Positions 1,045 through 29,272 of a stretch of DNA of 29,272 nucleotides are shown here, piece by piece. The notes beneath the pieces are model-generated. The model ran no database searches. It saw nothing but the letters and a program-made list of their open reading frames with translations, and was not told where the DNA came from. Made by a program: the position numbers and the translations under genes. Source of the stretch: Sulfitobacter sp. (GTDB lineage: Bacteria > Pseudomonadota > Alphaproteobacteria > Rhodobacterales > Rhodobacteraceae); contig JAGXHC010000038.1 in assembly GCA_024636405.1 (NCBI GenBank), positions 1 to 29,272 on the forward strand. The letters are read 5' to 3'. Positions within the stretch are counted from its first letter, which is position 1, and each line of letters opens with the position of its first letter.

Positions 1045-1091
1045 ATCCAACTGCGGACCGATCTTTGAGACCCCCGTCGGTGGCGCGACGT

Positions 1092-2557: not shown

Positions 2558-2573
2558 CTGTTGTCCTTTGGTC

Positions 2574-4079: not shown

Positions 4080-4089
4080 CTGGGTTCCT

Positions 4090-5456: not shown

Positions 5457-5466
5457 GGTGCTGACC

Positions 5467-7100: not shown

Positions 7101-7120
7101 GGTGTCTCCTTTTGGTTGGT

Positions 7121-9823: not shown

Positions 9824-9864
9824 GCGGGGCGCCTTCACCGGTGGGGCACCGATGCAGTTGTGCG

Positions 9865-9899
9865 AAAAAAGACCTCCGGGCAGCATGTGCGCGGAGGTC
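9865..9899 (-). terminator. Intrinsic terminator/attenuator after potD
   Basis: Read on the minus strand there is an 8-bp perfect stem, GACCTCCG pairing with CGGAGGTC (9899-9892 and 9878-9871), with a 13-nt loop, followed directly by six T (9870-9865). It lies between potD and potB in an 87-bp gap. No promoter is evident after it, so it likely lets a fraction of transcripts continue into the permease and enzyme genes. Confidence 0.8.
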
Positions 9900-9910
9900 A
9901 GTGGGAGAGA

Positions 9911-10960: not shown

Positions 10961-11052
10961 TAGTACCTCCAAGGTGATCTCATCCGTCGGATTGCCGCCC
11001 GATCTTGGGCAGCGGATTTTTTGTTGCGTTTCTATGTCGACGCTGTAGTTCA

Positions 11053-11079
11053 GTATTAATGTTATCAATTGTACGTCAA
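11053..11079 (-). promoter_or_regulatory. Candidate potD promoter with overlapping GntR-type operator
   Basis: On the minus strand TTGACG (11079-11074) could be a -35 box, with TAATAC (11058-11053) as a -10 at a short 15-nt spacing. The -35 is covered by the imperfect palindrome TTGTACGTCAA (11069-11079), close to the TNGTNNNACNA operator form of FadR/FCD-type GntR proteins. A second TTGTA half-site occurs at 11081. The divergent GntR gene makes this a likely autoregulated control region. The rest of the gap (10961-11159) is AT-richer than its flanks and holds no gene. Confidence 0.4.
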
Positions 11080-11159
11080 ATTGTATTTGCGGTCTTTTTC
11101 TGTCTCCCTGATGGGCATGGCGTGCGTTGTCGTGCACCGGGTCAGTGGCGGACGCGTCA

Positions 11160-13393: not shown

Positions 13394-14457
13394 ATTGTCG
13401 GTTTCCATGTCCGGTCCAGAACGCTCAGCCAGTTCTCATGACACAGCTTGGCCAGCAAGGCCGCGCCGTAGCCATGTGCAGCAAGCGCTTCGCGCAACGC
13501 GCCAAGACCCGCCGCGTCCTTTAGGGCGGCAGGCACCTGAGCGCCGTCAAAGTCTGATCCAAGACCGACGCGATCTTCGCCAAGTCGCTCAATCAGGTGG
13601 TCAAGGTGGCGCAGCATGGGATCAAACCCTCTGTCGTCTGCCTTGCGACCATCGAGATTGAGAAACCCTGTCGCGAAGTTCAACCCGACCATGCCATCGC
13701 TGGCGCGGACGATGTCCAGTTGCCGGTCCGTCAGGTTGCGCGAGGAGGCGGTTATTGCATGTGCGTTGGAATGGGTCGCGACCAACGGCGCATCGGAAAG
13801 CGCGGCCACATCGTTGAAGCCCGCCTCGTTCAGATGTGAAAGATCAACCATGATCCCCATCCGGTTGCAAAGCCTGACCAGATCCTTGCCTGCATTGGTC
13901 AATCCCGGCCCCGTGTCAGGCGATGATGGAAAGGCAAAGGGCACACCGTGGCCAAATATCGTTGGCCGGCTCCAGACCGGGCCGATGGACCGCAGACCCA
14001 TGTCGTGAAACAGATAAAGCGCGTCCAGATCGGCACCGATGGCCTCGGCTCCTTCGATGTGCATGATGGCGGCGATGATACCTTTGGCCAGACAATTACG
14101 CAGTTCGGCAACGGTGCGGCAGATCTTGAACTTGCCATCCGAAGACCGTTCCATCCATTTTAGATGCCCGGCCATGGCCAGCGCCACAGGTTGTGCGACG
14201 GCGGCGTCGATCAGTGGCGGCAGCGCCAGGTTATAGGGCGGGTTTTCCATCTCGTCGTCGATGTCGGTCGGCAAATCCGGCGATGAAATGTAGATCGCAA
14301 AGAATCCGCCACCAAAGCCGCCCTGCATCATCCGGGGCAGGTCCAGATGGCCCTTGCCGGTGTCCGTCAACCATGTGGTTTCGCGGTTTTCCGGATCGCG
14401 CAGCAAGCGCAGAAGAAAATCATTGTGCCCATCAAAGATGAGTGGTGTCGCGGTCAT
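13387..14457 (-). CDS. M19 (renal/membrane dipeptidase-like) dipeptidase
   Basis: A 356-aa zinc dipeptidase. The binuclear metal ligands of the family are present: H11 and D13 in FDGHND, E135 in HIEGAEAI, H208 in VDLSHLN and H229 in ATHSNAH, with D302 in GLGSDFDG closing the barrel. No signal peptide is seen, so it acts in the cytoplasm on imported dipeptides. M19 enzymes tolerate D-residues and dehydropeptides. Its start lies one base past the last ABC ATPase stop, so it is the final gene of the dpp operon and likely cleaves what that transporter brings in. Confidence 0.93.
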   Translation of the reverse strand: MTATPLIFDGHNDFLLRLLRDPENRETTWLTDTGKGHLDLPRMMQGGFGGGFFAIYISSPDLPTDIDDEMENPPYNLALPPLIDAAVAQPVALAMAGHLKWMERSSDGKFKICRTVAELRNCLAKGIIAAIMHIEGAEAIGADLDALYLFHDMGLRSIGPVWSRPTIFGHGVPFAFPSSPDTGPGLTNAGKDLVRLCNRMGIMVDLSHLNEAGFNDVAALSDAPLVATHSNAHAITASSRNLTDRQLDIVRASDGMVGLNFATGFLNLDGRKADDRGFDPMLRHLDHLIERLGEDRVGLGSDFDGAQVPAALKDAAGLGALREALAAHGYGAALLAKLCHENWLSVLDRTWKPTIQ

Positions 14458-14458
14458 G

Positions 14459-15217
14459 TCACGTCCCTTTAAAGCCTTCGCTCGCGGTCAGGAGTTCTTG
14501 TGTATAAGGCATCTGCGCCGCCCGATTTTGCAGCGCGTCGCGGGTCAGTTCCTCAACCCGTGCGCCATGCTGCATTACCAGCAGGCGTTCGCACATGTGC
14601 GCCACCACGGCAAGATCGTGACTGACCAACAGGTAGGTCAAACCACGGTCCATGCGCAGCGCGTCCAGCAGGTTCAGCACCTCCGCCTGAATAGAAGCGT
14701 CAAGCGCCGAGGTCGGTTCATCCAGCAGCAGGATCTTTGGTTCCAGGATCAGGGCACGGGCAATCGCGACCCTCTGGCGCTGACCCCCCGAAAGCTGGTG
14801 CGGAAACCGAAAGCGGAACCCCTTGCCCAGACCGACATCCTCCAGCGCCTTTTCCACGCGCGCCTCGGCACCCTTGAAGCCATGAATCGCAAGCGGCTCT
14901 GACAGGACCTTGTCGACCGTGTGGCGCGGGTGAAGGGATGCATAGGGGTCTTGAAACACCATCTGCACCTGACGGTAGAACGCACGGCTGCGCGGGTTTG
15001 CCAGCGGCACGCCGTCAATGCGGATTTCCCCGCGTGTCACAGGTGCAAGGCCACAGATCGCCCGCAGGACGGTCGATTTGCCCGATCCGCTTTCGCCCAC
15101 GATACCAAAGCTTTCGCCCTCGGCCTCGTCAAAGCTCACGCGGCGCACGGCCTGCACGGCATTCGCGCCGTGGCCAAAGGTAACGTCCAGATCAGAGACG
15201 GAAACCAGCGCGTTCAT
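14459..15217 (-). CDS. dppF: Dipeptide/oligopeptide-type ABC transporter ATP-binding protein (DppF-like)
   Basis: About 252 aa from the ATG at 15217, which overlaps the previous stop as ATGA; a GTG at 15226 would add three residues. Walker A is GESGSGKST (41-49), followed by QMVFQDPYASLHPRHTV typical of Opp/Dpp F subunits, the signature [15 protein letters not shown] and Walker B LLLDEPTSALD. It is short for DppF because it lacks the long C-terminal tail. It forms the ATPase heterodimer with the DppD-like protein. Confidence 0.92.
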   Translation of the reverse strand: MNALVSVSDLDVTFGHGANAVQAVRRVSFDEAEGESFGIVGESGSGKSTVLRAICGLAPVTRGEIRIDGVPLANPRSRAFYRQVQMVFQDPYASLHPRHTVDKVLSEPLAIHGFKGAEARVEKALEDVGLGKGFRFRFPHQLSGGQRQRVAIARALILEPKILLLDEPTSALDASIQAEVLNLLDALRMDRGLTYLLVSHDLAVVAHMCERLLVMQHGARVEELTRDALQNRAAQMPYTQELLTASEGFKGT

Positions 15218-16047
15218 TCCAGCCACGCCGCATCGCGGTTCAGTGTCTTGAGCGGACGCTGCCCGCTTTCGATCCGGGGCAGACAGTTCAACAGCCCTTG
15301 GGTATAGGGATGCTGCGCTGCGTGCAGATCCTTGGCGGCAATTTCTTCGACCACGCGGCCCGCGTACATCACCAGCACCCGGTCACAGAAGGTGGACACC
15401 AGCCGAAGATCATGGCTGATGAAAATAAGCCCCATCCCGCGTTCTCGTACCAGATCATCGAGGATCTTCAACACATCAAGCTGTACCGTGACGTCCAACG
15501 CCGACGTCGGCTCATCTGCGATCAACAGGTCAGGTTCCGCGATCAGCATCATGGCAATCATCGCGCGCTGGCCCATGCCGCCCGACAATTCATGCGGATA
15601 GGCGTTGAACACGCGGCCGGGATCGCGGATCTGCACGGCCTCAAGCATGTCGATGGCGCGTGCACGAGCGTCGGCGCGGGTGGCGTCACCGCGTCTGCGG
15701 TAGGCCTCGACGATCTGCCGCCCGATGGTCATCACGGGATTAAGCGAAAATTTCGGGTCCTGCATCACCATGCTCATCCGGCGCCCGCGCAGGCTTCGCC
15801 AGGTCTTGGTCGATGCACCGCGCAGATCAATGCCGTCGAACTCCAACCGCTTGGCGGTCAAGCGCCCCGAAGGCGGCGTCAGCCCAAGAAGCGCACGACC
15901 TGTCTGGGATTTGCCGGACCCGGATTCGCCCACGATGCCCAGCCGTTCGCGGCCCAGCGTGAACGACACATCGCGCACCACACGCACCGGTCCATCGCGC
16001 GAGGGAAAAGCAACGTTCAGCCCTTCGACCTGAAGCATGTCGGTCAT
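15214..16047 (-). CDS. dppD: Dipeptide/oligopeptide-type ABC transporter ATP-binding protein (DppD-like)
   Basis: 277 aa. Walker A is GESGSGKS (40-47), MVMQDPKFSLNPVMTIG is the Q-loop region, Walker B is LLIADEPTSALD and the H-loop FISHDL. The signature reads LSGGMGQR, where LSGGMRQR is usual; a small change at a variable position. The C-terminal HPYTQGLLNCLP motif is typical of D/F subunits. It overlaps its neighbours on both sides by ATGA (16047-16044 and 15217-15214). Confidence 0.93.
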   Translation of the reverse strand: MTDMLQVEGLNVAFPSRDGPVRVVRDVSFTLGRERLGIVGESGSGKSQTGRALLGLTPPSGRLTAKRLEFDGIDLRGASTKTWRSLRGRRMSMVMQDPKFSLNPVMTIGRQIVEAYRRRGDATRADARARAIDMLEAVQIRDPGRVFNAYPHELSGGMGQRAMIAMMLIAEPDLLIADEPTSALDVTVQLDVLKILDDLVRERGMGLIFISHDLRLVSTFCDRVLVMYAGRVVEEIAAKDLHAAQHPYTQGLLNCLPRIESGQRPLKTLNRDAAWLE

Positions 16048-16955
16048 TTTTCACCTTTCGGGTCAAGCACGTCACGCAGACCGTCGCCCAACAGGTTAAA
16101 GCCCAGTGACACAACAAAAATCGCGATCCCCGGCATGGTGGCGACCCACCAGAAATCAATCAAAAAGCGCCGCCCCGATGCAATCATTGCGCCCCATTCC
16201 GGTTGCGGCGGCTGTGCGCCCAGCCCCAGGAATCCAAGGCCCGCCGCCGTCAGAATGATCCCCGCCATATCCAGCGTGACCCGCACAATGACGGAACTCA
16301 TGCACAGCGGGACCACATGCCCCCAGATGATCCGGGGCGCCCCGGCACCCTGAAGGCGGATCGCGTCGATGTAATCGGTGTTGCGAATTGTCAGGGTTTC
16401 CGCGCGCGCAAGGCGTGCATAGGGTGGCCATGATGTGATGGCGATGGCGATGATCGCGTTCTCAATCCCCGGACCAAGGGCCGCGACGAACGCCAGTGCA
16501 AGTATCAGGCGGGGGAAGGCCAGAAAGATGTCGGTGATGCGCATCAGCACGGTATCAACCCAGCCGCCGAAATATCCCGCCGTTGTCCCCACAGCGAGAC
16601 CGATTGGCGTGGCAATCACCGCAACCATCGCCACAACCATCAGCGTCAGCCGCGAACCGTGTACAATGCGGCTGAAAATATCGCGGGCCTGATCGTCCGT
16701 GCCCATCAGGTGCGCCCATGAAGGCGGCAGCAGCCGCGCCGTGCGCAGATCGCCACCGCGCAACGGATCATAGGGCGCGATGAGGTCCGCAAAGATCGCC
16801 ATGACGATCAGAACGATGACAATGCCCAGCCCCAGCATCGCCAGCCGGTTGCGCCGCAGTTGCGACCAGGTCCGGTAGGCTTGCCCCAGACGGGCCTGTC
16901 GGCGCGAAGCGGGCTGATCGCTCAGCAACCAGTCACGGGTGGACAGGTCGGTCAT
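16044..16955 (-). CDS. dppC: Dipeptide/oligopeptide-type ABC transporter permease (DppC-like)
   Basis: 303 aa with a cytoplasmic N-terminus of about 40 residues, a first membrane helix (LAMLGLGIVIVLIVMAIFADLI) and the HLMGTDDQARDIFSRI segment characteristic of DppC/OppC. The EAA loop lies near DAIRLQGAGAPRIIWGHVVP. The C-terminus NLLGDGLRDVLDPKG is the conserved family ending. It is co-translated with the DppB- and DppD-like genes through ATGA overlaps. Confidence 0.94.
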   Translation of the reverse strand: MTDLSTRDWLLSDQPASRRQARLGQAYRTWSQLRRNRLAMLGLGIVIVLIVMAIFADLIAPYDPLRGGDLRTARLLPPSWAHLMGTDDQARDIFSRIVHGSRLTLMVVAMVAVIATPIGLAVGTTAGYFGGWVDTVLMRITDIFLAFPRLILALAFVAALGPGIENAIIAIAITSWPPYARLARAETLTIRNTDYIDAIRLQGAGAPRIIWGHVVPLCMSSVIVRVTLDMAGIILTAAGLGFLGLGAQPPQPEWGAMIASGRRFLIDFWWVATMPGIAIFVVSLGFNLLGDGLRDVLDPKGEK

Positions 16956-18019
16956 TTGCGCCGCCTGACACGCGGATCAAGCACGGTATAAAGCAGATCG
17001 GAAAGCAGGTTCAGCCCCACGAAGATCACGCCGATCACCAAGGTGCCGCCCAGCACCGCGTTCATATCCGCGTTTTGCAAACTGTTGGTCAGGTATTGTC
17101 CCAGTCCCGGCCAAGCAAATACCGTTTCAGTCAGCACAGACCCCTCAAGCAGGCCCGCATAGCTGAGCGCGATCACCGTCACCAGCGGCACGGCGGCATT
17201 TCGCAGCGCGTGCACCCAGATGATCCGCCATTCCGCCACACCCTTGACCCGCGCGGCGGTGATGTATTCCTGTCCCAGTTCAGCAAGCATGAAAGACCGC
17301 GTCATTCTGCTGATATACGCCATTGAAAAATAACCCAGAAGTGTCGCAGGCAGCGCCAGATGCGCCAGCACATTGCGAAAGGCGGCCCACTGGCCCTGCA
17401 TCGCGGTGTCGATCAGCAGCAAGCCGGTTTTTTGCGTGATGGTGTATTCATAAGCAATATCAATCCGCCCCGGCCCTGCGACCCAGTTCAGTTTGGCGTA
17501 AAACACCAGCAGCCCCAAAAGCCCGAGCCAGAAGATGGGCGCGGAATAACCCACCAGTCCTACTATGCGGATAATCTGATCGGGCAGGCGCCCCTGGCGC
17601 ACCGCGCCCCAGACCCCCAGCGGAATACCGACGATGGTGCCCAGGATAATGCCCGCCGTCGCCAGTTCCAGCGTGGCAGGGAAGACGCGTGCAATGTCTT
17701 CGACGATGGGCTTTTTCGTCAGCATCGACGTGCCCAGATCACCGCTGAAAGCCTGCGAGAGATAGATCCAGAACTGATGGTAAAGCGGTTTGTCCAACCC
17801 CAGCGCAATATATGCCGCGTCGTAGGTGGATTGCGACGCACGATCACCCACAACGGCAAGCACAGGGTCCACAGGAACCACACGCCCGATCAGGAAGGTG
17901 ACGACAAGCAGCCCCAGAAAGGTGATGGCGACGGTGACGATAAGCCTGCCCGCCTTCATCCCATAGATGGAGAGGGCGCCCCAGCGCCCTCCCGCGTTTG
18001 CCGGTGACGTTGCCGTCAT
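16952..18019 (-). CDS. dppB: Dipeptide/oligopeptide-type ABC transporter permease (DppB-like)
   Basis: 355 aa. After a short basic N-terminus comes the first helix and the VVPVDPVLAVVGDRAS segment, then the large domain with six membrane spans, a YISRMTRSFMLAELGQEYITAARVKG coupling loop and the FAWPGLGQYL motif, all standard for DppB/OppB. The ending LYTVLDPRVR is also conserved. The start overlaps the dppA stop by ATGA (18019-18016). Unlike the two other transport operons here, no terminator separates it from the binding-protein gene. Confidence 0.93.
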   Translation of the reverse strand: MTATSPANAGGRWGALSIYGMKAGRLIVTVAITFLGLLVVTFLIGRVVPVDPVLAVVGDRASQSTYDAAYIALGLDKPLYHQFWIYLSQAFSGDLGTSMLTKKPIVEDIARVFPATLELATAGIILGTIVGIPLGVWGAVRQGRLPDQIIRIVGLVGYSAPIFWLGLLGLLVFYAKLNWVAGPGRIDIAYEYTITQKTGLLLIDTAMQGQWAAFRNVLAHLALPATLLGYFSMAYISRMTRSFMLAELGQEYITAARVKGVAEWRIIWVHALRNAAVPLVTVIALSYAGLLEGSVLTETVFAWPGLGQYLTNSLQNADMNAVLGGTLVIGVIFVGLNLLSDLLYTVLDPRVRRRK

Positions 18020-19716: not shown

Positions 19717-19895
19717 GGGGCCAATGGCGAAGTTGCGCGGTGACGCGCGCAGTGCAGGCCATCGTGCGCCTTGTCGCCGGACAGTCAACTTGCGCATCGG
19801 CGCTGGTTTTCCGCCGCCCCAAGGCGTAACCATTCAGGTGGCCACAAGAATTGTGGCGCAAACCACGGACAAGACCCCGGAGCAAAGACCACGTC

Positions 19896-21578
19896 ATGAT
19901 CATCATCTCGTTTCTTGTCGAACTTATGGGGGCGACCATGTTGTTGCTCTTTGCGGTGCGCATGGTCAGGACCGGTATCGAGCGGGCGTTTGGGCCGTCG
20001 TTCAAGCGCATCGTGACAGAAAACCGCAACCGTGGCAGCGCCGCGGCCACGGGGCTGGTGCTGGCGGTCGTTCTGCAAAGCTCGGCCGCGGTTGCCTTAT
20101 TGGTTGCGGGGTTCTCGGCGGCGGGGGCCGTTTCATTCGGTGTGGGTCTATCGGTGGTGCTGGGGGCCGACCTGGGATCGGCGCTGTTGATCCAGATCTT
20201 TTCTTTCAATCTGGCGTGGCTTGTGCCTGTCCTGCTGGCGGTTGGCGGCGGGCTTTTTGTCAAATCCGAACAGCGCAAGCTGCGCCAGGCCGGGCGTATC
20301 ATCCTTGGGATTGCGTTCATCCTGATTTCGCTGCGGTTCCTGCGCGAAACAATGGAACCGATCCGCGACAGTTCCTTTCTGCCGGTGATCGCCGATTATC
20401 TGGCAACGGATTTTCTGACCGCGTTTATTGTCGGCAGCCTGCTGGCCTTTTTGATGCATTCCAGCGTTGCAGTGATATTGATGTGCGTCACGCTGGTGTC
20501 GGTGGGCGCAATTCCGGTGATCGCCGGGGTGTCGTTGGTTCTGGGTGCAAATCTGGGCAGCGCGATCATCCCGGTCTGGCTGAGCCGGGGCATGCGCAAT
20601 GCGGCACGGCGTGTGCCGGTGGCCAATCTGGCGGTGCGCGGAACGGGCGCGCTGATTGCGGTCTATGCGATCAACAGGTTCGGGCTGCTGGCCTATATCG
20701 GGTCGCCGACATCGCCGCAGACCCTGATCAACGCGCATATCCTGTTCAACATGCTGCTGCTGAGCACGCTTGTCTTTGCCAACCGGCTGGAGGCGCCGTT
20801 TGTGAAACTGCTGCCCGATGACCAGCCCACCTTCGAGGAACAATCCCCGATCTACCGATCGACGCTGGATGATAGCGTGCTGGACAAGCCGCATCTGGCG
20901 GTGGCGAACCTCAAGCGGGAAGTGCTGCGCATGGTGCAACTGGTCGAAACCATGATGACGCCGGTGATGGATTTTTATACCAAATATGATCCCGACCATG
21001 CCCGCACGGTGCTGGCGCAGGACAGTTATGTGAATGCGGCACTGGATGACGTGCGGCGCTACGCGGCGGCGCTGCAAAACACGAAACTGTCGAAACAAGA
21101 AGCCAAACGGGTGCGCGAAATTACCGAATATGCGATCGCGGTCGAGACCGCCGGGGACATCGTGGTCAAGCGTCTGGTGCCGCTTGCCAAGGAAAAGTCC
21201 GAAAAGGGCATCCGGTTCTCTGAAAACGGCAAGGCCGAAATCGCCAATATGCATGAGCAATCAATGACAAACATCATGCTGGCGTCAAACCTGCTGGTGT
21301 CCGACGATCTGGAAAGCGCGCGGTTGCTGCTGGAGGAAAAACAAGAGATGGCACGGTTGGAGCGCAAAAGCCGCAAACGCCACCTGAAGCGCCTGAGCGA
21401 CGGCGTGCAGATCAGTTTCGATTCAAGCGACATTCACCTTGAAACAGTCGGCTCCATCCGCGACTTTAACAGTCATCTGGCCTCGGCCGCCTATCCGATC
21501 CTGCACCGGGGCGGCCAACTGCTTGAGACCCGCCTGATCGAACAGGACTTCGAAGATCTTGACGTGCGACAGAGGTGA
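19896..21578 (+). CDS. Na+/phosphate cotransporter family protein with PhoU-like C-terminal domain
   Basis: 560 aa from the ATG at 19896; an in-frame TTG at 19851 is less likely, and the nearest SD-like GGAG is rather far from the ATG. Two inverted repeats of the Na_Pi_cotrans domain are visible, each with its hallmark: LQSSAAVALLVAG (about residues 63-75) and MHSSVAVILMCVTL (about 187-200), each followed by a GA(D/N)LGSA motif. About 310 residues of membrane domain precede a soluble helical domain (about 350-530) of PhoU type. Members move phosphate with sodium, often outward. It is transcribed alone between two minus-strand operons, and no link to their substrates is apparent. Confidence 0.92.
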   Translation: MIIISFLVELMGATMLLLFAVRMVRTGIERAFGPSFKRIVTENRNRGSAAATGLVLAVVLQSSAAVALLVAGFSAAGAVSFGVGLSVVLGADLGSALLIQIFSFNLAWLVPVLLAVGGGLFVKSEQRKLRQAGRIILGIAFILISLRFLRETMEPIRDSSFLPVIADYLATDFLTAFIVGSLLAFLMHSSVAVILMCVTLVSVGAIPVIAGVSLVLGANLGSAIIPVWLSRGMRNAARRVPVANLAVRGTGALIAVYAINRFGLLAYIGSPTSPQTLINAHILFNMLLLSTLVFANRLEAPFVKLLPDDQPTFEEQSPIYRSTLDDSVLDKPHLAVANLKREVLRMVQLVETMMTPVMDFYTKYDPDHARTVLAQDSYVNAALDDVRRYAAALQNTKLSKQEAKRVREITEYAIAVETAGDIVVKRLVPLAKEKSEKGIRFSENGKAEIANMHEQSMTNIMLASNLLVSDDLESARLLLEEKQEMARLERKSRKRHLKRLSDGVQISFDSSDIHLETVGSIRDFNSHLASAAYPILHRGGQLLETRLIEQDFEDLDVRQR

Positions 21579-21636: not shown

Positions 21637-22665
21637 TCAGCGATGATCGTTCCCGAAGCCTTCCAGCACGCTGGTCAGATTATCCGACAGCGCATCGCAA
21701 AGATACCCGCCTTCCTGCACAAAAAGACAGGGCAGACCCAGCTTGGCGATGGCACTTCCGATGCGGGCAAACCCCGGTGTCGTGATCGCCAGGCCCTTGA
21801 GCGGATCATCGACATAGGCATCAAGGCCAAGGGCCACGACGATAACATCAGCACCAAAGCTGGTGATCTGCGCCAACGCGACGTCCAGCGTGTCCAGATA
21901 TGTCCGATCATCGGTGCCGCGCGGCAGCGGCAAATTCACATTATACCCAAACCCCGCGCCCGCGCCGCGTTCATGCGCCTGACCCCAGAAGAACGGATAG
22001 AACCGCTCTGGATCGGCATGCAGCGAGACGGTAAGCACATCTGCGCGTTCATAGAAAATGCCTTGGGTGCCGTTGCCGTGATGCACATCCACATCAAGAA
22101 TTGCCGCGCGCAGCCCCCGCGCCCTGAGACGTTCAGCGGCGATTGCGGAATTGTTGAGAAAACAAAACCCACCCGCCAGATCGCCAAACGCGTGATGGCC
22201 GGGTGGGCGCGCCAAGGCATAGACCGCACGGGTGCCACCCGCCACCAAATCAGCCCCGGTGATCGCACTTTGGGCGGACCAATAGGCCGCTTCCCAAGTG
22301 CCCGCCGCGATGGGGCACGCGGTGTCGGCCTGATGAAACCCGGCCTGACCCACTGCGGATTTGGGATAGCTGTCCGTGCGATTGGCGGGGTGGATATTCG
22401 GGATCACCTCGTCGCCCGCGCCGTCGATATATTGCCAGCGGCGGTATATGTTTTGCAAAAACGTCAGGTATAGCGGCGAATGCAGCGCCGCGATGGGGCC
22501 AATACCGGCATCATCAGGCGCCTGCACCTCACATCCAGCGGCCTTTGCCCCGGCCAGCAACCGCTCGATCCGTTCGGGCTGTTCTGGGTTCGGCATGGTC
22601 GCCCCATTGGCCATGAAATGCTTTGGGTCGTGTTTCCGCTGGCGGTCGTCAAAAATGGTTTTCAT
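21637..22665 (-). CDS. Acetylpolyamine amidohydrolase-like deacetylase (histone deacetylase superfamily)
   Basis: 342 aa, the same length as the acetylpolyamine amidohydrolase of Mycoplana ramosa, which it resembles throughout. Active-site elements are RPPGHH (H157, H158), the zinc ligands D193 and H195 in LDVDVHHGNG, D282 in LGLDAY, and the transition-state Tyr Y321 in EGGY. The enzyme removes acetyl groups from aminoalkyl chains in the cytoplasm. Its ATG overlaps the acetyltransferase stop (22665-22662). It is the last gene of an operon with an aminotransferase and a beta-keto-acid cleavage enzyme. This suggests an acetamido acid or its CoA ester, such as 4-acetamidobutyryl-CoA, as substrate; a plain acetylpolyamine is the alternative. 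Confidence 0.92.
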   Translation of the reverse strand: MKTIFDDRQRKHDPKHFMANGATMPNPEQPERIERLLAGAKAAGCEVQAPDDAGIGPIAALHSPLYLTFLQNIYRRWQYIDGAGDEVIPNIHPANRTDSYPKSAVGQAGFHQADTACPIAAGTWEAAYWSAQSAITGADLVAGGTRAVYALARPPGHHAFGDLAGGFCFLNNSAIAAERLRARGLRAAILDVDVHHGNGTQGIFYERADVLTVSLHADPERFYPFFWGQAHERGAGAGFGYNVNLPLPRGTDDRTYLDTLDVALAQITSFGADVIVVALGLDAYVDDPLKGLAITTPGFARIGSAIAKLGLPCLFVQEGGYLCDALSDNLTSVLEGFGNDHR

Positions 22666-23132
22666 GGGGATCCTTTCAAACGTAACAGCGCCGCGCCGTG
22701 CAATATCATCGCGGTCTCGCCGGTTTGGGCGGTGAACCCGATGCGATCATAAAACCGCTGCGCCGCTGGGTTGTCGGTATAAACGGCAAGTTTCAGGAAC
22801 TGCGCATGCCATAGCTGCGCGGCAGTCGTCAGCAGACGCGTGCCCAATGACCGGCCACGCGCGGACGGCGATACCCAAAGATCGGTCACATAAAGCCCCC
22901 GACCGCCGCGCGTGGTGGAAAATATCGGCGAACACACAAGCACACCCAGCGGAGCATCACCGTGCAGTGCCAGCAGGGCGCGGTAGGCAGGGCAGGGGCC
23001 AAAGCCCTCGTCCTCCAGTTGCGCGGTAGTGGCAGTGTGGTCATCCCCCAAATCGGCGCTCAGCCGCATGAGGGCGCCGTGCAGCAGCGGCACCTGTGAT
23101 CTTGTAACGACGTTGATCGCGATATCCTGCAC
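22662..23132 (-). CDS. GNAT N-acetyltransferase, diamine acetyltransferase (SSAT)-like
   Basis: 156 aa, GTG start at 23132, three bases past the BKACE stop. The GNAT core is GLYVTDLWVSP (79-89), the acetyl-CoA P-loop RGRSLG (92-97) and NPAAQRFYDRIGF (121-133), the pattern seen in spermidine/diamine and thialysine N-acetyltransferases. It transfers acetyl from acetyl-CoA to an amine. With a deacetylase encoded next to it, the acetyl group may serve as a temporary blocking group during catabolism, for instance on the distal amine of a diamino acid. A different amine target is possible because GNAT specificity is hard to read. Confidence 0.88.
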   Translation of the reverse strand: MQDIAINVVTRSQVPLLHGALMRLSADLGDDHTATTAQLEDEGFGPCPAYRALLALHGDAPLGVLVCSPIFSTTRGGRGLYVTDLWVSPSARGRSLGTRLLTTAAQLWHAQFLKLAVYTDNPAAQRFYDRIGFTAQTGETAMILHGAALLRLKGSP

Positions 23133-23135
23133 GGT

Positions 23136-24062
23136 TCAGATTGCCGTCCGGTCACCACCCTTGAGGTGCAGCATCTCGCGGGCCTCTTGCGGGGTGGCGA
23201 CGGTACGGCCAAGCTCCTGTACGATGCGGCGGATCTTGGCCACCTGTTCAGCGTTGGATTTCGCCAGCGTGCCACGCGCGATCATCAGGCTGTCTTCCAG
23301 TCCAACCCGCACATGGCCGCCAAGGATCGCGGACATGGTGATCAGCGGCATTTGGTGACGCCCTGCGGCCAGCACCGAAAAGGCATAATCGTCGCCAAAC
23401 AGCTTGTCGGCAATCAGCTTCATATGGGTCAGATTTTCAGGATCCGTCCCGACGCCGCCCAGCACGCCAAAGACGAACTGAATGAAGACGGGCGCCTTGA
23501 CCAGCCCGCGGTCCATGAAATGACGCAGCATGTAAAGGTGGCTAAGATCGTAACATTCAAATTCGAATTTTGCGCCGCGCTTTTCGCCCATTTCGGTCAG
23601 GATATGTTTCAGATCCCGCGGTGTGTTCTTGAACACCAGATCATCAGACTCCTCCAGAAAGGACTTTTCCCAATCGAATTTCCAGTCGGTGATCTTGTCC
23701 GCCGCCGGATAAAGCGCAAAGTTCATCGAGCCCATGTTCAGCGAACACATTTCAGGTTCCGCCAGCAACGGGGCCGCAAGGCGCTGATCCAGCGTCATGG
23801 TGGCGCTGCCGCCTGTCGTGATGTTCAGCACCGCATCGCTGGCCTGTTTGATACGCGGCAGGAAGGCAGCGAAATGGGCAGGATCAGCAGACGGGCGGCC
23901 GTCGTCGGGATGGCGCGCGTGAAGGTGCAGGATGGCAGCCCCGGCTTCGGCCGCACCAAGCGCGTTTTGCGTGATCTCATCGGGTGTGACAGGCAGGTAG
24001 GGCGACATGGAAGGGGTGTGGATTGACCCGGTAATGGCACAGGTAATGATGATCTTGGACAT
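23136..24062 (-). CDS. BKACE-family beta-keto acid cleavage enzyme (DUF849, Kce-like)
   Basis: 308 aa. The zinc ligands H46 and H48 occur in ILHLHAR, at the numbering of the reference enzyme Kce, and the C-terminal Glu-Asp pair is in VRVGLEDS (E256, D257). These enzymes use acetyl-CoA to cleave a beta-keto acid into acetoacetate and an acyl-CoA. The founding member acts on 3-keto-5-aminohexanoate in lysine fermentation. The ATG lies two bases past the aminotransferase stop, with an AAGGAAGC SD. Next to a class III aminotransferase the simplest substrate is the beta-keto acid made from a beta-amino acid. Confidence 0.93.
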   Translation of the reverse strand: MSKIIITCAITGSIHTPSMSPYLPVTPDEITQNALGAAEAGAAILHLHARHPDDGRPSADPAHFAAFLPRIKQASDAVLNITTGGSATMTLDQRLAAPLLAEPEMCSLNMGSMNFALYPAADKITDWKFDWEKSFLEESDDLVFKNTPRDLKHILTEMGEKRGAKFEFECYDLSHLYMLRHFMDRGLVKAPVFIQFVFGVLGGVGTDPENLTHMKLIADKLFGDDYAFSVLAAGRHQMPLITMSAILGGHVRVGLEDSLMIARGTLAKSNAEQVAKIRRIVQELGRTVATPQEAREMLHLKGGDRTAI

Positions 24063-24064
24063 GG

Positions 24065-25411
24065 TCAGCTTCCTTGGGTTGTGCCCGAAAGGCCGGGCAT
24101 TTCGGCGGCAAACTGAGCCAGCGATCGGTCCAGCAGATCGGTGAGTTCATCCAGTTGCGCCTCGGTCACGATCAGCGGTGGGCACACAAGAAAATGGTCC
24201 CCCGATGCGCCGCCTCGCGTGCGCCGCGAATAGATGATCAGCCCATTGTCATAGGCAATATCGACCAGCCGCGCATGGGCGTTCAGCGCAGCGGGCAGGG
24301 GTTCCTTGGTGCCGCGATCAGCCATGAGTTCAAAGGCCATCAGCAGCCCCTTGCCCCGCACGTCACCGATCATGGCATACCGCTGCATCAGCCCATCCAG
24401 CCGCGCCCGCAACAGCGATCCCATGCGGGCGGCGTTTCCGGTCAGGTCGTGGGTTGCTATCTGGTCCAGCACCGCATTGCCCGCAGCACAGGCCAGCGGG
24501 TTGCCGGCATAGGTGAACCCGTGGATAAACCCGCCACCGGTCATGACGGCGTCTACGATGTCGTCACGCGCGATCATCGCGCCAAGGGGCACGTAGCCAC
24601 TGCCGAATCCTTTGGAAAGCGCAATAATATCCGGTGTCACCTCCCAGTGGTCGGCGCCAAAGAACGCACCGGTCCGTCCGCCGCCCGTCATCACTTCGTC
24701 ATGGATCAACAGGACGCCGTACTGTGTACAGATTTCGCGGATGCGTCGCATATAGCCCGCAGGCGGCACCAGCGCCCCGGTCGATGCACCGCCAACCGGT
24801 TCCACAATAAAGGCAAGGACGGTTTCGGGGCCTTCCTCAAGGATCTTTTGCTCCAGCAGGTTGGCATAGAATAATCCGGTGGCCGGATCGTCTGCGTCCA
24901 GCCCATCAAGATAGGCGCGCGGTGCGGCAATTTTCGGCATCCGTTGCATCATCGGATCAAACGGGGCGGTCATCGGCGCATAGCCAGTGATTGCAAGCGC
25001 CCCCAGCGTGCACCCATGATAGCTGGGCATCCGCGAGATCACCTTGAACCGCTGTGCCTCGCCTTGGATCAGCGCATATTGCCGCGCCAGTTTCAGGGTG
25101 CTTTCCACCGCCTCGGACCCGCCGGAGACAAAGAAGACCTTGTTCAATCCGTCAGGCGCAAGCGCTGCGGTCTTGCGTGCCAACTCCTCGGAGCTTTCGG
25201 TCTGAAAGTGCAAGCGGTAGCCAAAGGTTGATTTTTCCATCTGTGCGCGCATCGCGTCCAGCACGGCGGGATTGGAATGACCGATGTTCGACACCATCGC
25301 GCCGGACGATCCGTCAATATACCGTTTGCCGGACGCATCCCACATATAGATACCCTCGGCGCGGTCCAGCACGGGGCGGGCGGATTTTGATTGGTAGAAC
25401 AGATTGGACAT
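24065..25411 (-). CDS. Class III PLP-dependent aminotransferase
   Basis: 448 aa fold-type I aminotransferase. PLP contacts are FVSGGSEAVES (94-104) for the phosphate, Y131-H132 stacking on the ring, D238 in LIHDEV and the Schiff-base lysine K267 in ALSKGFGSGY; the family residue T295 or so lies in GFTYAGNPL. The class moves amino groups from omega- or beta-positions, usually to pyruvate or 2-oxoglutarate. Located directly before BKACE, it probably converts a beta-amino acid to the beta-keto acid that BKACE cleaves; N6-acetyl-beta-lysine is a specific candidate. An 11-nt gap separates it from the transporter ATPase. Confidence 0.93.
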   Translation of the reverse strand: MSNLFYQSKSARPVLDRAEGIYMWDASGKRYIDGSSGAMVSNIGHSNPAVLDAMRAQMEKSTFGYRLHFQTESSEELARKTAALAPDGLNKVFFVSGGSEAVESTLKLARQYALIQGEAQRFKVISRMPSYHGCTLGALAITGYAPMTAPFDPMMQRMPKIAAPRAYLDGLDADDPATGLFYANLLEQKILEEGPETVLAFIVEPVGGASTGALVPPAGYMRRIREICTQYGVLLIHDEVMTGGGRTGAFFGADHWEVTPDIIALSKGFGSGYVPLGAMIARDDIVDAVMTGGGFIHGFTYAGNPLACAAGNAVLDQIATHDLTGNAARMGSLLRARLDGLMQRYAMIGDVRGKGLLMAFELMADRGTKEPLPAALNAHARLVDIAYDNGLIIYSRRTRGGASGDHFLVCPPLIVTEAQLDELTDLLDRSLAQFAAEMPGLSGTTQGS

Positions 25412-25422
25412 GATTTTTCAGT

Positions 25423-26199
25423 TCAGTTCTGGTTTTCGTTGCGCGACAAATGTTTGCGCAGAAAGTTTTTGGTGCGTTCGTGTTCGGGGTTGCGGAACAG
25501 CACGCTGGGCGGGCCTTCTTCGACCACCACACCCTGATCCATGAACAGCACCCGATCACAGACGGAGGCGGCGAAATCCATCTCGTGGGTCACGATGATC
25601 ATGGTCATATGCTCTTCTGCCAGTTGCTTCATCACCTGGTTCACCTCTTCAACCAGTTCCGGATCAAGCGCCGATGTCGCCTCGTCGAACAGCATCACCT
25701 TGGGCTTCATCGCCAGCGCGCGCGCAATCGCCACACGCTGTTTTTGGCCACCTGACAGGCGCGAGGGATATTCGTCGATCTTCTCGGAAAGGCCGACCTT
25801 GGCCAGTTGCTCTTCGGCCAATGTATTGGCTTGCTCGGTCGATAACCCCTTGAGCATCTTGGGCGCCAGCGTGATGTTTTCGCGGACGTTGAGATGCGGA
25901 AACAGGTTGAAGTGCTGGAACACCATGCCGATCTCCTGTCGCACCTGATTGACGTGCTTTTCGTACTGCCGCGGCGGCAGCTTGCGGTTGATCTGGACGC
26001 CCTCCAGCCAAACCTCGCCGGAACTGAGGGGGTCCAGTTCATTGATGGCGCGCAGCAACGTGGATTTGCCTGACCCGGACGGGCCGATGATGGCGACAAT
26101 CTGGCCGCGCTCCACCTGCAGGCTGATGTCCTTGAGCACCTCAAGCGCGCCAAAGCTTTTTGCGGCATGGCGAATGTCAACAAAGGCGGAATCGCTCAT
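25423..26199 (-). CDS. Polar amino-acid ABC transporter ATP-binding protein (GlnQ/HisP type)
   Basis: 258 aa from the ATG at 26199, with AGGAG six bases upstream; an in-frame ATG at 26220 would add seven residues and overlap the repaired permease stop. Walker A is GPSGSGKST (39-47), followed by [48 protein letters not shown] and IVTHEM, all standard for the PAAT family. It powers uptake with the two permeases just before it. The reading frame of the damaged permease runs on into this gene to 26177, which may disturb its translation. Confidence 0.94.
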
Positions 26200-26872
26200 C
26201 TGGGTCTCCTTCATGGTCATCGGGTTGCCGCAATGCGCCGTTCGATCCGGCGCAGTCCGGCCTCAAGCGCCAGATTGATAACGTAATAGCACCCTGCCGC
26301 CGCAAGGTAGAATTCAAACGGGCGGTAGGTGCGGCTGATGCCTGTTGCGCCGCCAGCGTAAGTTCCATCACGCCGATAACAGAAACCAGCGCGGAATCTT
26401 TCAGAAGCGCGATCATGTTGTTGCCCATCGGCGGGATCACGGCGCGCACCGCCTGGGGGATCACGATACGGCGCAGGGTCTGGCCGCGGCTTAGCCCCAG
26501 TGTCCGCGCGCCCTCGTATTGGCCTTTGTCCACGGCCAGGATCGACGCCTGAATCAGTTCGGAATTATAGACCGCAAAGTGCAGGCCCAGCCCGATGACC
26601 CCGGCGACAAAGGCGGGCAGGTCAATCCCGATCTGGATCAGTCCAAAGTAGATCAGGAACAATTGCAGCAGCAGCGGTGTGCCCATGAACAGGAACGCAA
26701 AGCCACGCACCGGCAGCCGAAGCGCCCAGTGGCCATAAAGCGCGATGACCGCAAAGACGATACCGCCAAAAAAGCTGAGCAGAACCGCGCCAATCGTGAT
26801 GGCAATGGTCCAACCCATGCCCCAAAGCAGCACGCCGAAATACGAAGGCACCACCGTGAAATCAAGCCCCAT
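26177..26872 (-). pseudogene. Polar amino-acid ABC permease with a C-terminal frameshift
   Basis: The gene starts at the ATG at 26872 (AAGGG upstream) and is a normal PAAT permease through GVMELTLAAQQ. After that (at about 26338-26347) the frame is lost. The bases beyond it, read one frame over, encode the expected ending SRTYRPFEFYL followed by a membrane helix and [12 protein letters not shown], and stop at 26217 in an ATGA overlap with the alternative ATG of the ATPase at 26220. As written, the frame replaces the last ~40 residues with unrelated sequence and ends at 26177. One missing base (or four or seven) would restore a 218-220-aa protein. No slippery heptamer is seen, so programmed frameshifting is unlikely. 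It is either a sequencing error or a recent mutation that removes the last helix. Confidence 0.85.
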
Positions 26873-26902
26873 GGCTGTTACCCTTATGAAAGTGCGGTGC
26901 CA

Positions 26903-27550
26903 TCATGTGATGCGCGCCCGGCGGTCGAGCCAGTTGATGCCATGGCCCGTAATGAAGATTATGATCATATACAGCGATCCAGAAAGCAGGAACATCTCGA
27001 ACGGTTTGTACGTACTGCCGATGTAGCGCTGCGCGGTATAGGTCAGCTCAACAACTGAAATCGCGGCGACCAGCGCGGTGCCCTTGATCAATGCGTTGAT
27101 ATTGACGCCCAGCGGTCGGATCATCAGGCGCATCGCCTGCGGCAACACGACCTTGCGCATGGTTTCCCAGCGGCTCATGCCCAGCGTGCGTGCCGCTTCG
27201 GTCTGGCCCTTGTCCACCGACATGATCGCGCCGCGCATGGTCTCCGTCATATAGGCACCGATGTTGACACCAAGCCCGATCACACCGGCCTCGAACGCAT
27301 CAAGCTGGATACCGATTTGCGGCCCGCCAAAGTACAGGATGAAAAGCTGGATCAGCGCAGGCGTGCCGCGGAACACGCTGACATATGTGGCACCGATCCC
27401 GCGCAGGATGCGGCTGCGCGACATCCGCAGGGTTGCCCCCAGCGCGCCACAGGCCAGCCCCAGCGCAGTCGTCAGCAAAGACAGCTTGATGGTGACGAAT
27501 GCCGCTTCGATAAAAAAGGGATAAACCTTCAGGATCAGTTCAATATCCAC
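26903..27550 (-). CDS. Polar amino-acid ABC transporter permease (HisM/GlnP type)
   Basis: 215 aa, GTG start at 27550 with AGGAA seven bases upstream. Membrane helices lie near residues 14-36, 55-75, 87-106 and in the C-terminal third. The family loop EAARTLGMSRWETMRKVVLPQA contacts the ATPase, and the intact ending ELTYTAQRY...TYKPFEMFLL shows what the neighbouring permease should look like. It would form a heterodimeric channel with that frameshifted permease; if the partner is dead, a homodimer is the only option. It is the first gene after the terminator that follows the binding-protein gene. Confidence 0.93.
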   Translation of the reverse strand: MDIELILKVYPFFIEAAFVTIKLSLLTTALGLACGALGATLRMSRSRILRGIGATYVSVFRGTPALIQLFILYFGGPQIGIQLDAFEAGVIGLGVNIGAYMTETMRGAIMSVDKGQTEAARTLGMSRWETMRKVVLPQAMRLMIRPLGVNINALIKGTALVAAISVVELTYTAQRYIGSTYKPFEMFLLSGSLYMIIIFITGHGINWLDRRARIT

Positions 27551-27711
27551 AGCGTTTCCTGCATTCTGTCATCAATGATGATCCCGGCATTGCGGCATCT
27601 GCAATTTCTGCAATTTGCGTGTCCAGCGGATCGGCGCATTTCCAGGCGGCGTCGCGCGGCCTTTTTCATGCCTGATGGCCGTGGCTGGGCAATGCGTTCA
27701 TGCCGCTGGAA

Positions 27712-27745
27712 TACAAAATGGCCTGCCGAAACATCCGGCAGGCCA
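27712..27745 (-). terminator. Intrinsic terminator/attenuator after the amino-acid binding protein gene
   Basis: On the minus strand a 10-bp perfect stem, TGGCCTGCCG pairing with CGGCAGGCCA (27745-27736 and 27728-27719), carries a 7-nt loop and is followed by TTTTGTATT. It begins 13 bp after the binding-protein stop. The rest of the 208-bp gap to the permease (27551-27758) shows no gene and no clear promoter, so the downstream genes probably rely on read-through. Confidence 0.8.
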
Positions 27746-27758
27746 AGGTCTTAGCGGT

Positions 27759-28547
27759 TCAACGAATGTCGCCGCCGACCCATTCTTCAGCAATCGTGAG
27801 GTAGGTGCCGTCTTCCATCATGGAATCAAGCGCGGCTTTCATTGCAGCGGCAAGTTCGGGGTTGCCTTCGCGGATCGCGATACCAGCACCGACAGGCTCT
27901 GCCGACGGGTCATTGATCACGGCAAGGTCATACTGGCCCGCTTTCATCGCCAGCATAACGGGGATGGAATCGTTCACGATGGCATCCACGCGGCCATTGG
28001 TCAGTTCCAACAGCAACTCCGGCAAGCCCTTGTAGGTGTTGATATTATAGCCCTGATCGCGCGCCCATTGTTCGTGCGTTTCGCCCAGAGTTACGCCCAC
28101 CTTCACATCGGCAAGCTGTTCAACAGTGGTGACATCGGAGCCTTGTTTGGTGAAAATCGCGCGCTTTGTGGTGTAATAGGGGCCGACAAAATCGATCACC
28201 TTGTCACGCTCTTCCGTGATCGACATGGAGCCGACGACCGCATCGTATTTGTTGGCCAGCAGACCGCCGATGATGCCATCCCATGCGGTGGTGATGATCT
28301 CTACCTCCAGCCCCATGCGCTTGGCGATTTCCGTGCCGATGGCGGGGTCGAAACCGACAACCTTGTTCTCGGTGTTGACGAAGTTGAATGGCGGATACTG
28401 CCCGCTCATTGCGATCCTGAGAACGCCGCGCTCCTTGATTTCTGCCAACTCTTCGGCACTGGCGGCGACAGGTGCGATGGCAAGCCCGACAACAGCGACG
28501 CTGCCTGCAAGAAAGGTCCGACGCAGAATATTTTTGAAAGTGATCAT
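27759..28547 (-). CDS. Polar amino-acid ABC transporter periplasmic binding protein (SBP family 3)
   Basis: 262 aa, ATG at 28547 after a GGGAG-type SD. The signal peptide contains RRTFLAGS (9-16), which could be a twin-arginine signal, and cleaves near AASA-EE. The family-3 fold shows GVLRIAMSGQYPPFNFV, VVGFDPAIGTEIAKRMG, the hinge segment DAVVGSMSITEERDKVIDF and YYTTKRAIF. Such proteins bind polar or charged amino acids. The downstream enzymes suggest a beta- or diamino acid. The gene is first in its operon and divergent from the LysR regulator. Confidence 0.94.
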   Translation of the reverse strand: MITFKNILRRTFLAGSVAVVGLAIAPVAASAEELAEIKERGVLRIAMSGQYPPFNFVNTENKVVGFDPAIGTEIAKRMGLEVEIITTAWDGIIGGLLANKYDAVVGSMSITEERDKVIDFVGPYYTTKRAIFTKQGSDVTTVEQLADVKVGVTLGETHEQWARDQGYNINTYKGLPELLLELTNGRVDAIVNDSIPVMLAMKAGQYDLAVINDPSAEPVGAGIAIREGNPELAAAMKAALDSMMEDGTYLTIAEEWVGGDIR

Positions 28548-28679: not shown

Positions 28680-28694
28680 ATAGATAGAATCTAT
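28680..28694. promoter_or_regulatory. T-N11-A palindrome overlapping the LysR start, candidate autoregulatory LysR box
   Basis: ATAGAT-AGA-ATCTAT is a perfect inverted repeat that contains the LysR-type T-N11-A form (T28681 to A28693) and covers the first bases of the regulator's ATG. The half-site ATAGAT also occurs at 28658-28663, 22 bp away or about two helical turns, as expected for a LysR tetramer contacting two sites on one DNA face. Confidence 0.5.
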
Positions 28695-29272
28695 GTTAAA
28701 AACTTACGAACAACGCTTCCCCTGGCAACTTGACTGGAACCTGCTGCGCACCTTCATGGTGGTGGTGGACGAAGGCGGGATCACCCCGGCCGCGAATTTC
28801 CTTGGGCTCAAGCAACCCACAATCAGTGCCGCGCTGAAACGGCTCGAAGACAGTCTGGGCCGCAAGTTGGTCAACCGCACGCCAAACCATTTCAGTGTGA
28901 CACCACTGGGTCAGGTGCTTTATGCCGAGGCACGGTCGATGTTTGGCATGGTGGCGCAATTGCCTGATCTGATGAGCGGACTGGATGACGAAGTCACCGG
29001 TCACATCAGCATTGCAGTGGCCAGCCATGTCGTGTCGACACATTTCGATACGGTGCTGGAGCAGTTCAATGAACGCTATCCGCAGGTGACATATTCCATC
29101 TCCACGCTGGAAAGCGCCCAAGTGGTGGGGCATGTGCAGCAGAACGGCATGACGCTGGGTATCTGTCTGTTACAGGAAATCCCCACGCGGCTGGACACGG
29201 TTGTGCTTTACCGCGAATTCTTTGGATTTTATTGCGGCCCCCGGCACCGGCTTTTTGGGCAGGACAATATCC
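28693..29272 (+). CDS. LysR-family transcriptional regulator, 3'-truncated by window end
   Basis: The frame is open from the ATG at 28693 to the window edge (193 codons). Residues 16-75 are the winged helix-turn-helix: WNLLRTFMVVVDEGGITPAA, LKQPTISAALKRLED, and a wing ending near VNRTPNHFSVTPLG. The substrate-sensing domain begins near residue 105 with GHISIAVAS and runs off the end. There is no clear SD. It diverges from the amino-acid binding protein gene and is the obvious candidate activator of that operon, with autorepression through the palindrome at its start. The effector is unknown; an imported beta-amino acid or an intermediate is plausible. Confidence 0.93.
   Translation, partial: MLKTYEQRFPWQLDWNLLRTFMVVVDEGGITPAANFLGLKQPTISAALKRLEDSLGRKLVNRTPNHFSVTPLGQVLYAEARSMFGMVAQLPDLMSGLDDEVTGHISIAVASHVVSTHFDTVLEQFNERYPQVTYSISTLESAQVVGHVQQNGMTLGICLLQEIPTRLDTVVLYREFFGFYCGPRHRLFGQDNI

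Follow-up and report, generated by a model that had tools for sequence, protein, structure and literature searches.

Beta-lysine is an unusual amino acid, which occurs as a salt protectant, an archaeal osmolyte, and an antibiotic building block. Aerobic degradation of L-beta-lysine in a Pseudomonas was reportedly described by enzymology in the 1970s-80s: the compound is said to be acetylated on N6 and transaminated, whereupon the resulting 3-keto acid is cleaved and the acetyl group removed. EC 2.6.1.65, 3.5.1.51, and 3.5.1.63 presumably belong to this route. To our knowledge, several beta-lysine degradation activities lack sequences. The preliminary description of the DNA studied here had stated that it knew of no gene assignment for the route as a whole, and none was found in those parts of the literature that the search covered.

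In lysine fermentation, the keto acid used by Kce derives from beta-lysine. Kce cleaves its keto acid as a member of the PF05853 family (PMC4922564, in part). In a variant of this fermentation, an acyl-CoA beta-transaminase is linked with the Kce-type pathway and acts on a CoA ester (PMC3149608, in part). Another PF05853 enzyme, BKACE15 of Paracoccus denitrificans (structure 8RIP), has Zn and Glu-Asp residues and was assayed on unacylated keto acids (PMC11961710, in part). No acetamido substrates were found in the available parts of PMC12133276, PMC10915406, PMC12421898, and PMC10971088.

Gene content of the operon

The window (the whole stretch of 29,272 nucleotides analysed, from Sulfitobacter sp.) contains a single operon on the - strand at 21637-28547. 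ORFs and family profiles agree with the earlier claim that one operon encodes uptake, an aminotransferase (AT), BKACE, an acetyltransferase, and a deacetylase. The genes, with a divergent neighbour, are as follows.

28693-29272 (cut by the window end), + strand: LysR-type regulator gene, divergent, from sequence and translation
27759-28547, - strand: family-3 solute-binding protein (PF00497, 135.1 bits), aligned with E. coli ArgT and HisJ
26903-27550, - strand: first permease (PF00528, 90.8 bits)
26177-26872, - strand: second permease (PF00528), with a frame change near 26339
25423-26220, - strand: ABC transporter ATPase, polar amino-acid type (PF00005); a relative's start aligns at 26199
24065-25411, - strand: class III aminotransferase (PF00202, 344.5 bits), proposed maker of a beta-keto acid
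23136-24062, - strand: BKACE (PF05853, 368.1 bits against a cut-off of 24.8)
22662-23132, - strand: GNAT acetyltransferase (PF00583, 53.9 bits), proposed to N6-acetylate beta-lysine
21637-22665, - strand: HDAC-fold deacetylase, acetylpolyamine-amidohydrolase-like (PF00850, 238.1 bits), proposed to remove the N-acetyl group

By their ORF coordinates, AT and BKACE as well as BKACE and GNAT are separated by 2-3 bp, and the GNAT and deacetylase genes overlap by 4 bp. A LysR relative is divergent at the same place in related loci. In this contig the gene of the second permease carries a frameshift: a relative matches it in two frames (26872-26339 and 26339-26223), so that by this match it spans 26223-26872. 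The preliminary description was silent on both the divergent LysR gene and the frameshift.

The window BKACE shares with BKACE15, whose structure 8rip is its fourth best solved match, the zinc and Glu-Asp residues that had already been noticed in it; His46, His48, Arg252, Glu256, and Asp257 show no variation in 94 relatives. While BKACE15 was assayed on unacylated keto acids, an N-acyl substrate is proposed here. Although of the same family as Kce, the window BKACE stays below the Kce cut-off (NF052387, 248.5 bits against 382), and no aminomutase genes were found beside the operon. It passes the cut-off of NF053538 (3,5-dioxohexanoate:acetyl-CoA acetone transferase) with 514.6 against 430. Because L084 and L085, where a BKACE has an unrelated context, pass as well, this name was dropped as a substrate call. 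At the thresholds used, no position discriminates 84 BKACEs whose locus includes AT from 10 whose locus does not, so that BKACE sequence by itself does not tell the substrate.

The deacetylase belongs to a group that public annotation names histone deacetylase family proteins. Its closest solved relatives are acetylpolyamine amidohydrolases, and it has the fold and catalytic motif of these enzymes (M. ramosa APAH, P. aeruginosa PA0321/PA1409, and PsApaH). In 76 operon deacetylases the RPPGHH stretch and Asp193, His195, and Asp282, which we take by homology to form the Zn site, are invariant, and Gly-Tyr of the XGGY motif is present in 75, with a gap in the remaining one. Unlike the amidohydrolases, these enzymes sit in an AT-BKACE operon, and none of the 76 has an acid at the positions aligned with Glu106 or Glu117 of M. 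ramosa APAH, which are occupied by V/I/T/A/S/G and A/S, respectively. PsApaH, however, is active on polyamines despite having His for Glu106 (PMC11532494, in part); since it shares the loss in part, these acids are not obligatory in the family, and the lost polyamine-binding acids make a weak argument.

The nearest solved relative of GNAT is thialysine acetyltransferase (E 4.8e-07), with diamine acetyltransferase 2 lower. The name of AblB-type beta-lysine N6-acetyltransferase is not among its seven NCBIfam matches at E<=0.001. An acetyltransferase and a deacetylase within one operon point to temporary protection of an amine.

Cleaving systems and deacylases across genomes

Among 390 Rhodobacterales genomes surveyed for AT, it is present in 95, at 96 places. 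At 90 of these it adjoins a beta-keto-acid cleaving system, which is either BKACE (60) or a 3-oxoacid CoA-transferase, CtfAB (30), and never both; the subunits of the latter score above cut-off as 3-oxoacid CoA-transferase. The deacylase differs with the cleaving enzyme. HDAC-fold deacetylase is found in 56 of the 60 BKACE loci and an ArgE/DapE deacylase in 29 of the 30 CoA-transferase loci, while the reverse pairing (BKACE with ArgE/DapE or CtfAB with HDAC-fold) has no case in the Rhodobacterales sample. Outside this sample there are exceptions: L073 combines BKACE with ArgE, and L131 and L132 have both deacylases. The AT tree contains at least five changes between BKACE and CtfAB. The deacylase changes together with the cleaving enzyme in all three independent pairs on well-supported branches, which is below significance, as at least six concordant pairs would be needed.

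From the BKACE side, AT lies within 9 kb in 72 of 80 relatives, and 66 of those 72 also have the deacetylase, so that the clustering is not due to chance. GNAT is less constant, being absent from 17 of the 72 BKACE-AT loci, although these 17 keep the deacetylase, and from 15 of the 60 BKACE loci and 22 of the 30 CtfAB loci. The preliminary description had suggested a survey of the four families, to be read against the proposal if they did not stay together. AT, BKACE, and deacetylase do occur together across genera; the four do not stay together in the case of GNAT, nor where BKACE and deacetylase are both replaced.

Replacement by CoA-transferase and ArgE implies that a beta-keto acid is cleaved and an N-acyl group removed. 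Even without the substrate, the operon's reactions can be read from the joint exchange of the cleaving enzyme and the deacylase. By comparative genomics, it is well supported that the operon would carry out transamination to a beta-keto acid, its cleavage, and N-deacylation. Of the four-step route put forward earlier, these three reaction types are upheld by the swap; the gene proposed for the acetylation step is present in the window and missing from part of the relatives.

Proposed pathway and source of the substrate

The best candidate substrate, with roughly even chances, is (N6-acetyl-)beta-lysine. The ABC transporter would take it up, and GNAT would convert free beta-lysine to the N6-acetylated form, whose later 3-keto acid should consequently not cyclise. 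AT would then produce 3-keto-6-acetamidohexanoate; unlike the acyl-CoA beta-transaminase, it would use the free acid, ahead of the cleavage step. With acetyl-CoA, BKACE would cleave this product to acetoacetate and 4-acetamidobutyryl-CoA, and the HDAC-fold enzyme would deacetylate either this CoA ester or the corresponding free acid, yielding 4-aminobutyrate. In related operons, 3-oxoacid CoA-transferase (often with thiolase) and the ArgE/DapE deacylase would replace the last two steps. The operon may offer one gene type for each step of the Pseudomonas route; cleavage and deacetylation come in two unrelated versions in the operon family, unlike in that route. The six of 96 AT loci without either cleaving system count against the pathway, as do the loci that lack GNAT, the exceptions to the deacylase pairing, the accessory enzymes of relatives, and the lack of an aminomutase gene beside the operon.

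The binding protein lacks Asp11 of ArgT in the alignment with ArgT and HisJ. Given the presumed role of this residue, its absence would agree with a side chain made neutral by acetylation. As for the origin of beta-lysine, no lysine 2,3-aminomutase scores above cut-off in 30 operon genomes, and none was found adjoining the operon in the operon genomes and the phylum sample. Linkage to KamA was accordingly rejected as a tie of the operon to lysine, and beta-lysine would need to be imported. Absence of the aminomutase is not general: of the 21 phylum-sample genomes whose AT reaches at least 53% identity, 10 have an aminomutase family match at E<=1e-30. Seven of these matches have a recorded place, on another contig or 1.3 Mb off; the other three are those of G062, G121, and G414. 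A YbgC-like thioesterase gene, which adjoins the operon in three loci (L086, L133, and L140), speaks for the pathway.

Alternative substrates

That the operon takes up and breaks down a beta-amino acid whose omega nitrogen is acylated, with N6-acetyl-beta-lysine and/or beta-lysine as the most likely substrates, is about as probable as not. Chain length, acetyl as the acyl group, stereochemistry, and the substrate can only be inferred. A narrower version appears rather unlikely: genes of aerobic (N6-acetyl-)beta-lysine catabolism in two convergent cassettes of Alphaproteobacteria from marine and soil habitats, with the HDAC-fold enzyme as a small-molecule deacetylase acting on 4-acetamidobutyryl-CoA and ArgE/DapE on the free acid. 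A CoA thioester substrate would account for the pairing of the HDAC-fold enzyme with BKACE, and in the CoA-transferase cassette CoA would be handed on before deacylation, leaving the free acid. Similarly doubtful is that the same reactions serve another omega-N-acyl beta-amino acid, such as 3,5-diaminopentanoate (giving beta-alanine), 3,5-diaminohexanoate, or a beta-lysine conjugate. These are, we assume, rarer in nature, yet comparative genomics limits the reaction types and not the chain length. The related BKACE15 accepts several uncharged beta-keto acids (PMC11961710, in part).

The accessory genes of relatives vary with transporter type (amidases, racemases, and a DauA-like enzyme), and many relatives carry such D-amino-acid enzymes or amidases although a simple beta-lysine scheme has no use for them. 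The racemase is nearest to lysine and broad-specificity racemases and the FAD enzyme to D-arginine dehydrogenase (DauA), similarities that are suggestive of a basic amino acid. Of the 96 AT loci, 13 have M20 and racemase and 20 the DauA-like enzyme. Homologues of both DgcA and DgcN, known from the D-glutamate pathway, come after the operon in part of the Liv-type relatives, but they fall below the curated cut-offs (184.7 against 400 and 217 against 480) and are absent from the window. They suggest chemistry at the alpha carbon, which is not a stereocentre in beta-lysine. The operon could instead serve basic D- or N-acyl alpha-amino acids of lysine/ornithine type, with racemases, DauA-like enzyme, and amidases as principal entry enzymes and AT and BKACE working on a metabolite of these amino acids. 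We consider this distinctly improbable, since the accessory genes are absent from the window operon and many relatives, these loci have no known route that would turn alpha-lysine into a beta-keto acid, and AT with BKACE or CtfAB calls for a beta-keto acid. Alanine recycling as the role of racemase and DauA-like enzyme was rejected: transporter types differ, and M20 and DgcA/DgcN would be left without a role. Another alternative is acetylpolyamine catabolism, with a polyamine transporter supplying GNAT as an SSAT and the deacetylase as a true acetylpolyamine amidohydrolase. It would agree with the presence of a Pot-type transporter at 38 of the 80 loci, with the polyamine or thialysine enzymes nearest to deacetylase and GNAT, and with the activity of PsApaH. 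Its probability is small, as AT and BKACE or CtfAB would have no role and the operon deacetylases have non-acidic residues at the two places where M. ramosa APAH has acids. Least probable of all is that 3,5-dioxohexanoate, or some comparable neutral beta-keto acid, is what BKACE cleaves and that its neighbours are incidental: the NF053538 score would favour it, but L084 and L085 share this match, and adjacency to AT at 60 of 96 places is not incidental.

If the (N6-acetyl-)beta-lysine proposal is true, sequence-less degradation activities would gain genes, and a group of HDAC-fold "histone deacetylase family proteins" would be reassigned. It would also become possible to trace in genomes where this compound, an osmolyte of archaea and a component of antibiotics, is consumed in nature, with AT in 95 of 390 sampled Rhodobacterales genomes.

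This type of operon occurs in both marine and soil bacteria, with its cleaving and deacylating parts in two interchangeable chemical versions.

Operon structure and conserved partners

The features of the window that concern the proposed pathway are:

28547 to 21637, minus strand: single operon encoding a family-3 binding protein, two permeases, an ATPase, a class III aminotransferase (AT), a beta-keto acid cleavage enzyme (BKACE), a GNAT acetyltransferase and an HDAC-fold deacetylase (HDA)
start at 28693, divergent from the operon: LysR gene, incomplete, cut by the window end

ORFs and family matches thus confirm the gene content given for 21637-28547 in the preliminary description. The four enzyme genes are separated by gaps of 2-3 bp or overlap by 4 bp (ORF coordinates). 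Compared with its relative in locus L002, the second permease gene (26223-26872) has a frame change near 26339 (residue 178/179), reflecting either a sequencing or assembly error or damage to the transporter gene. A Na/Pi cotransporter gene with a PhoU domain (19851-21578) is convergent to the operon and lies outside it in mapped relatives.

A BKACE scan of named genomes gave 461 related loci, of which the best 80 were used. Co-occurrence counts in these 80 are lower bounds, some loci stopping at contig edges (e.g., L011 and L049). AT lies within 9 kb of BKACE in 72 of the 80, and among those 72 HDA is found in 66, GNAT in 52, and HDA without GNAT in 17. The expected co-occurrence of the four families therefore holds well for AT and HDA but less so for GNAT. 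AT was not found within 9 kb at the threshold used in L033, L051, L061, L065, L070, L076, L077 and L079; in L076 the contig start truncates AT, and L033 has only a 34% AT match, adjoining BKACE and HDA. The transporter type varies among the 80 loci (Pot in 38, amino-acid in 23, Liv in 4), and two of them carry, downstream, an M14-like gene together with one for an oligopeptide-type binding protein.

Alternative cleavage cassettes beside the aminotransferase

A plasmid of Rhodobacteraceae bacterium M382 carries a similar LysR gene, transporter and AT (64.7% identical), without BKACE and HDA after AT. In their place are CoA-transferase subunits A and B (CtfAB), both exceeding the cut-off as 3-oxoacid CoA-transferase, an ArgE/DapE deacylase (ArgE), a thiolase, an M20 amidohydrolase and an alanine racemase. 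In 390 Rhodobacterales genomes searched with AT (E<=1e-140, 61-85% identity), AT is present in 95, at 96 places. BKACE lies within 2.5 kb at 60 of these (median gap 28 bp), and CtfA adjoins AT in 30 of the 35 searched genomes without adjacent BKACE, among the places listed.

All 96 regions were retrieved and gene-mapped. The 60 BKACE loci include HDA in 56, neither deacylase in 4, GNAT in 45, and ArgE or thiolase in none, whereas the 30 CtfAB loci include ArgE in 29, neither deacylase in 1, thiolase in 19, GNAT in 8 and HDA in none. BKACE and CtfAB were found together at none of the 96 places. Six have neither cleaving system: L180 and L181 retain GNAT and HDA, L233 ArgE and L192 GNAT, while L262 and L264 have none of these. 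Fisher's test for the pairing of cassette and deacylase gives 2e-23 with kinship ignored. The AT tree needs at least five changes between BKACE and CtfAB; the deacylase changes alongside the cassette in all three independent pairs on well-supported branches (p 0.25, too few for significance). In an earlier quick tree of 97 ATs, made without bootstrap, CtfAB-type L093, L126 and L127 cluster with BKACE-type L028, L041 and L044.

In the simplest reading of this comparison, AT would produce a beta-keto acid, for which the cleaving system would be BKACE in some loci and CoA-transferase with thiolase in others, and an N-acyl group would be taken off by one of two unrelated deacylases. The reaction types proposed in the preliminary description are thereby supported. 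The relative BKACE15 accepts several uncharged beta-keto acids (PMC11961710); the tail of the keto acid 3-keto-6-acetamidohexanoate would carry no charge either. A YbgC-like thioesterase gene, expected if an acyl-CoA product is formed, adjoins the operon in L086, L133 and L140; it was not found in the 96 Rhodobacterales regions at the threshold used.

In a sample of 398 Pseudomonadota genomes, AT was matched at E<=1e-110 in 33, with at least 53% identity in 21. In these 21 short loci, BKACE adjoins AT in 17, CtfAB in two and neither in two; the last two genomes (G085 and G201) have a 59% identical BKACE elsewhere. No close BKACE was found in three CtfAB genomes (best match 36% in G268, none in G414 and G204). 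Outside the order sample the pairing has exceptions: L073 combines BKACE with ArgE, and L131 and L132 have BKACE, HDA and ArgE. AT-GNAT-deacetylase operons without a cleaving enzyme occur at L180:7501-11466, L181:7501-11467, L135:7982-11095 (G085) and L141:8504-11618 (G201).

Candidate substrate

Beta-amino acids with a second amine, which would have to be acetylated, are few, and beta-lysine is the best-known case. An aerobic Pseudomonas route for beta-lysine with matching steps has reportedly been described by enzymology. Lysine 2,3-aminomutase exceeded the cut-off in none of 30 operon genomes; in a second set, a family member occurs somewhere in 10 of 21 genomes; none was seen adjoining the operon, and in the seven genomes with listed places it is remote from it. 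Beta-lysine would therefore be imported, and an outside source agrees with the transporter genes in the operon. In the operon's binding protein, Ser aligns with Asp11 of E. coli ArgT, and the Arg and Asp of the ligand site, presumably the holders of the amino acid's carboxylate and amine, are retained.

A polyamine substrate has to be weighed for HDA. In the M. ramosa acetylpolyamine amidohydrolase, two sources name Glu106 (PMC11532494) and Glu117 (PMC5454378) as binding the polyamine amine; according to the former, the acetylpolyamine-active PsApaH carries His in place of Glu106. In an alignment read by eye, the window HDA has Val105 and Ala116 at these places. Across 76 AT+BKACE loci, the position aligned with Glu106 is V in 56, I in 11, T in 5, A in 2, S in 1 and G in 1, and that aligned with Glu117 is A in 60 and S in 16. 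The missing acidic residues speak only weakly against a polyamine, in view of the His in PsApaH and because chain 9gkz, presumably PsApaH, carries Gly at the position aligned with Glu117. The chances that the substrate is beta-lysine or N6-acetyl-beta-lysine are about even. In agreement with the preliminary description, no assignment of these genes was found in the part of the literature searched (pathway, intermediates, enzymes, orphan enzymes and BKACE operons); subscription journals, mostly outside its scope, may hold one.

Accessory genes and related gene groups

Accessory genes track mainly the transporter type, and both cassettes have them except for DgcA. Within the 96 Rhodobacterales regions, a creatininase-like gene occurs in 10 CtfAB, 6 BKACE and 1 other locus, M20 with racemase in 10 CtfAB and 3 BKACE loci, a DauA-like gene in 1 CtfAB, 17 BKACE and 2 other loci, and DgcA in 4 loci, all of BKACE type. 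GNAT was not found at the threshold used in any of the 13 M20-racemase loci. The racemase is nearest to broad-specificity and lysine racemases and the FAD enzyme to D-arginine dehydrogenase; DgcA/DgcN-like proteins match N-acetyl-D-Glu racemase/N-acetyltransferase below the cut-off. In rhizobial relatives, a protein annotated as N,N-dimethylformamidase-like precedes AT. These enzymes may convert imported stereoisomers or conjugates for use by AT. The accessory genes do not yet fit the scheme, and alpha-carbon chemistry has no obvious use for beta-lysine.

L089:6709-9023 lacks both AT and BKACE and pairs a 67% identical HDA with an ArgE/DapE deacylase and an oligopeptide-type ABC transporter; its target may be a related N-acyl compound. 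In L137:7567-9745, a 45% identical AT adjoins a gene distantly resembling BKACE (25%), and no acetyl-related gene among those queried was mapped; this pair possibly serves a different beta-amino acid. Class III aminotransferases and an APH-type phosphotransferase share gene groups at L092:1600-10468 with two HDAC-fold deacetylases (44% and 55%). In the window, an M19 dipeptidase gene (scanned) is followed by apparent oligopeptide-type ABC transporter genes (from ORFs) at 13387-18019. A further group at 43-14457 centres on a Pot-type ABC transporter and includes an amidohydrolase, a DAO-type FAD enzyme, an aldehyde dehydrogenase, an APH-type phosphotransferase, two EutQ-like cupins and two macrolide-type glycosyltransferases.
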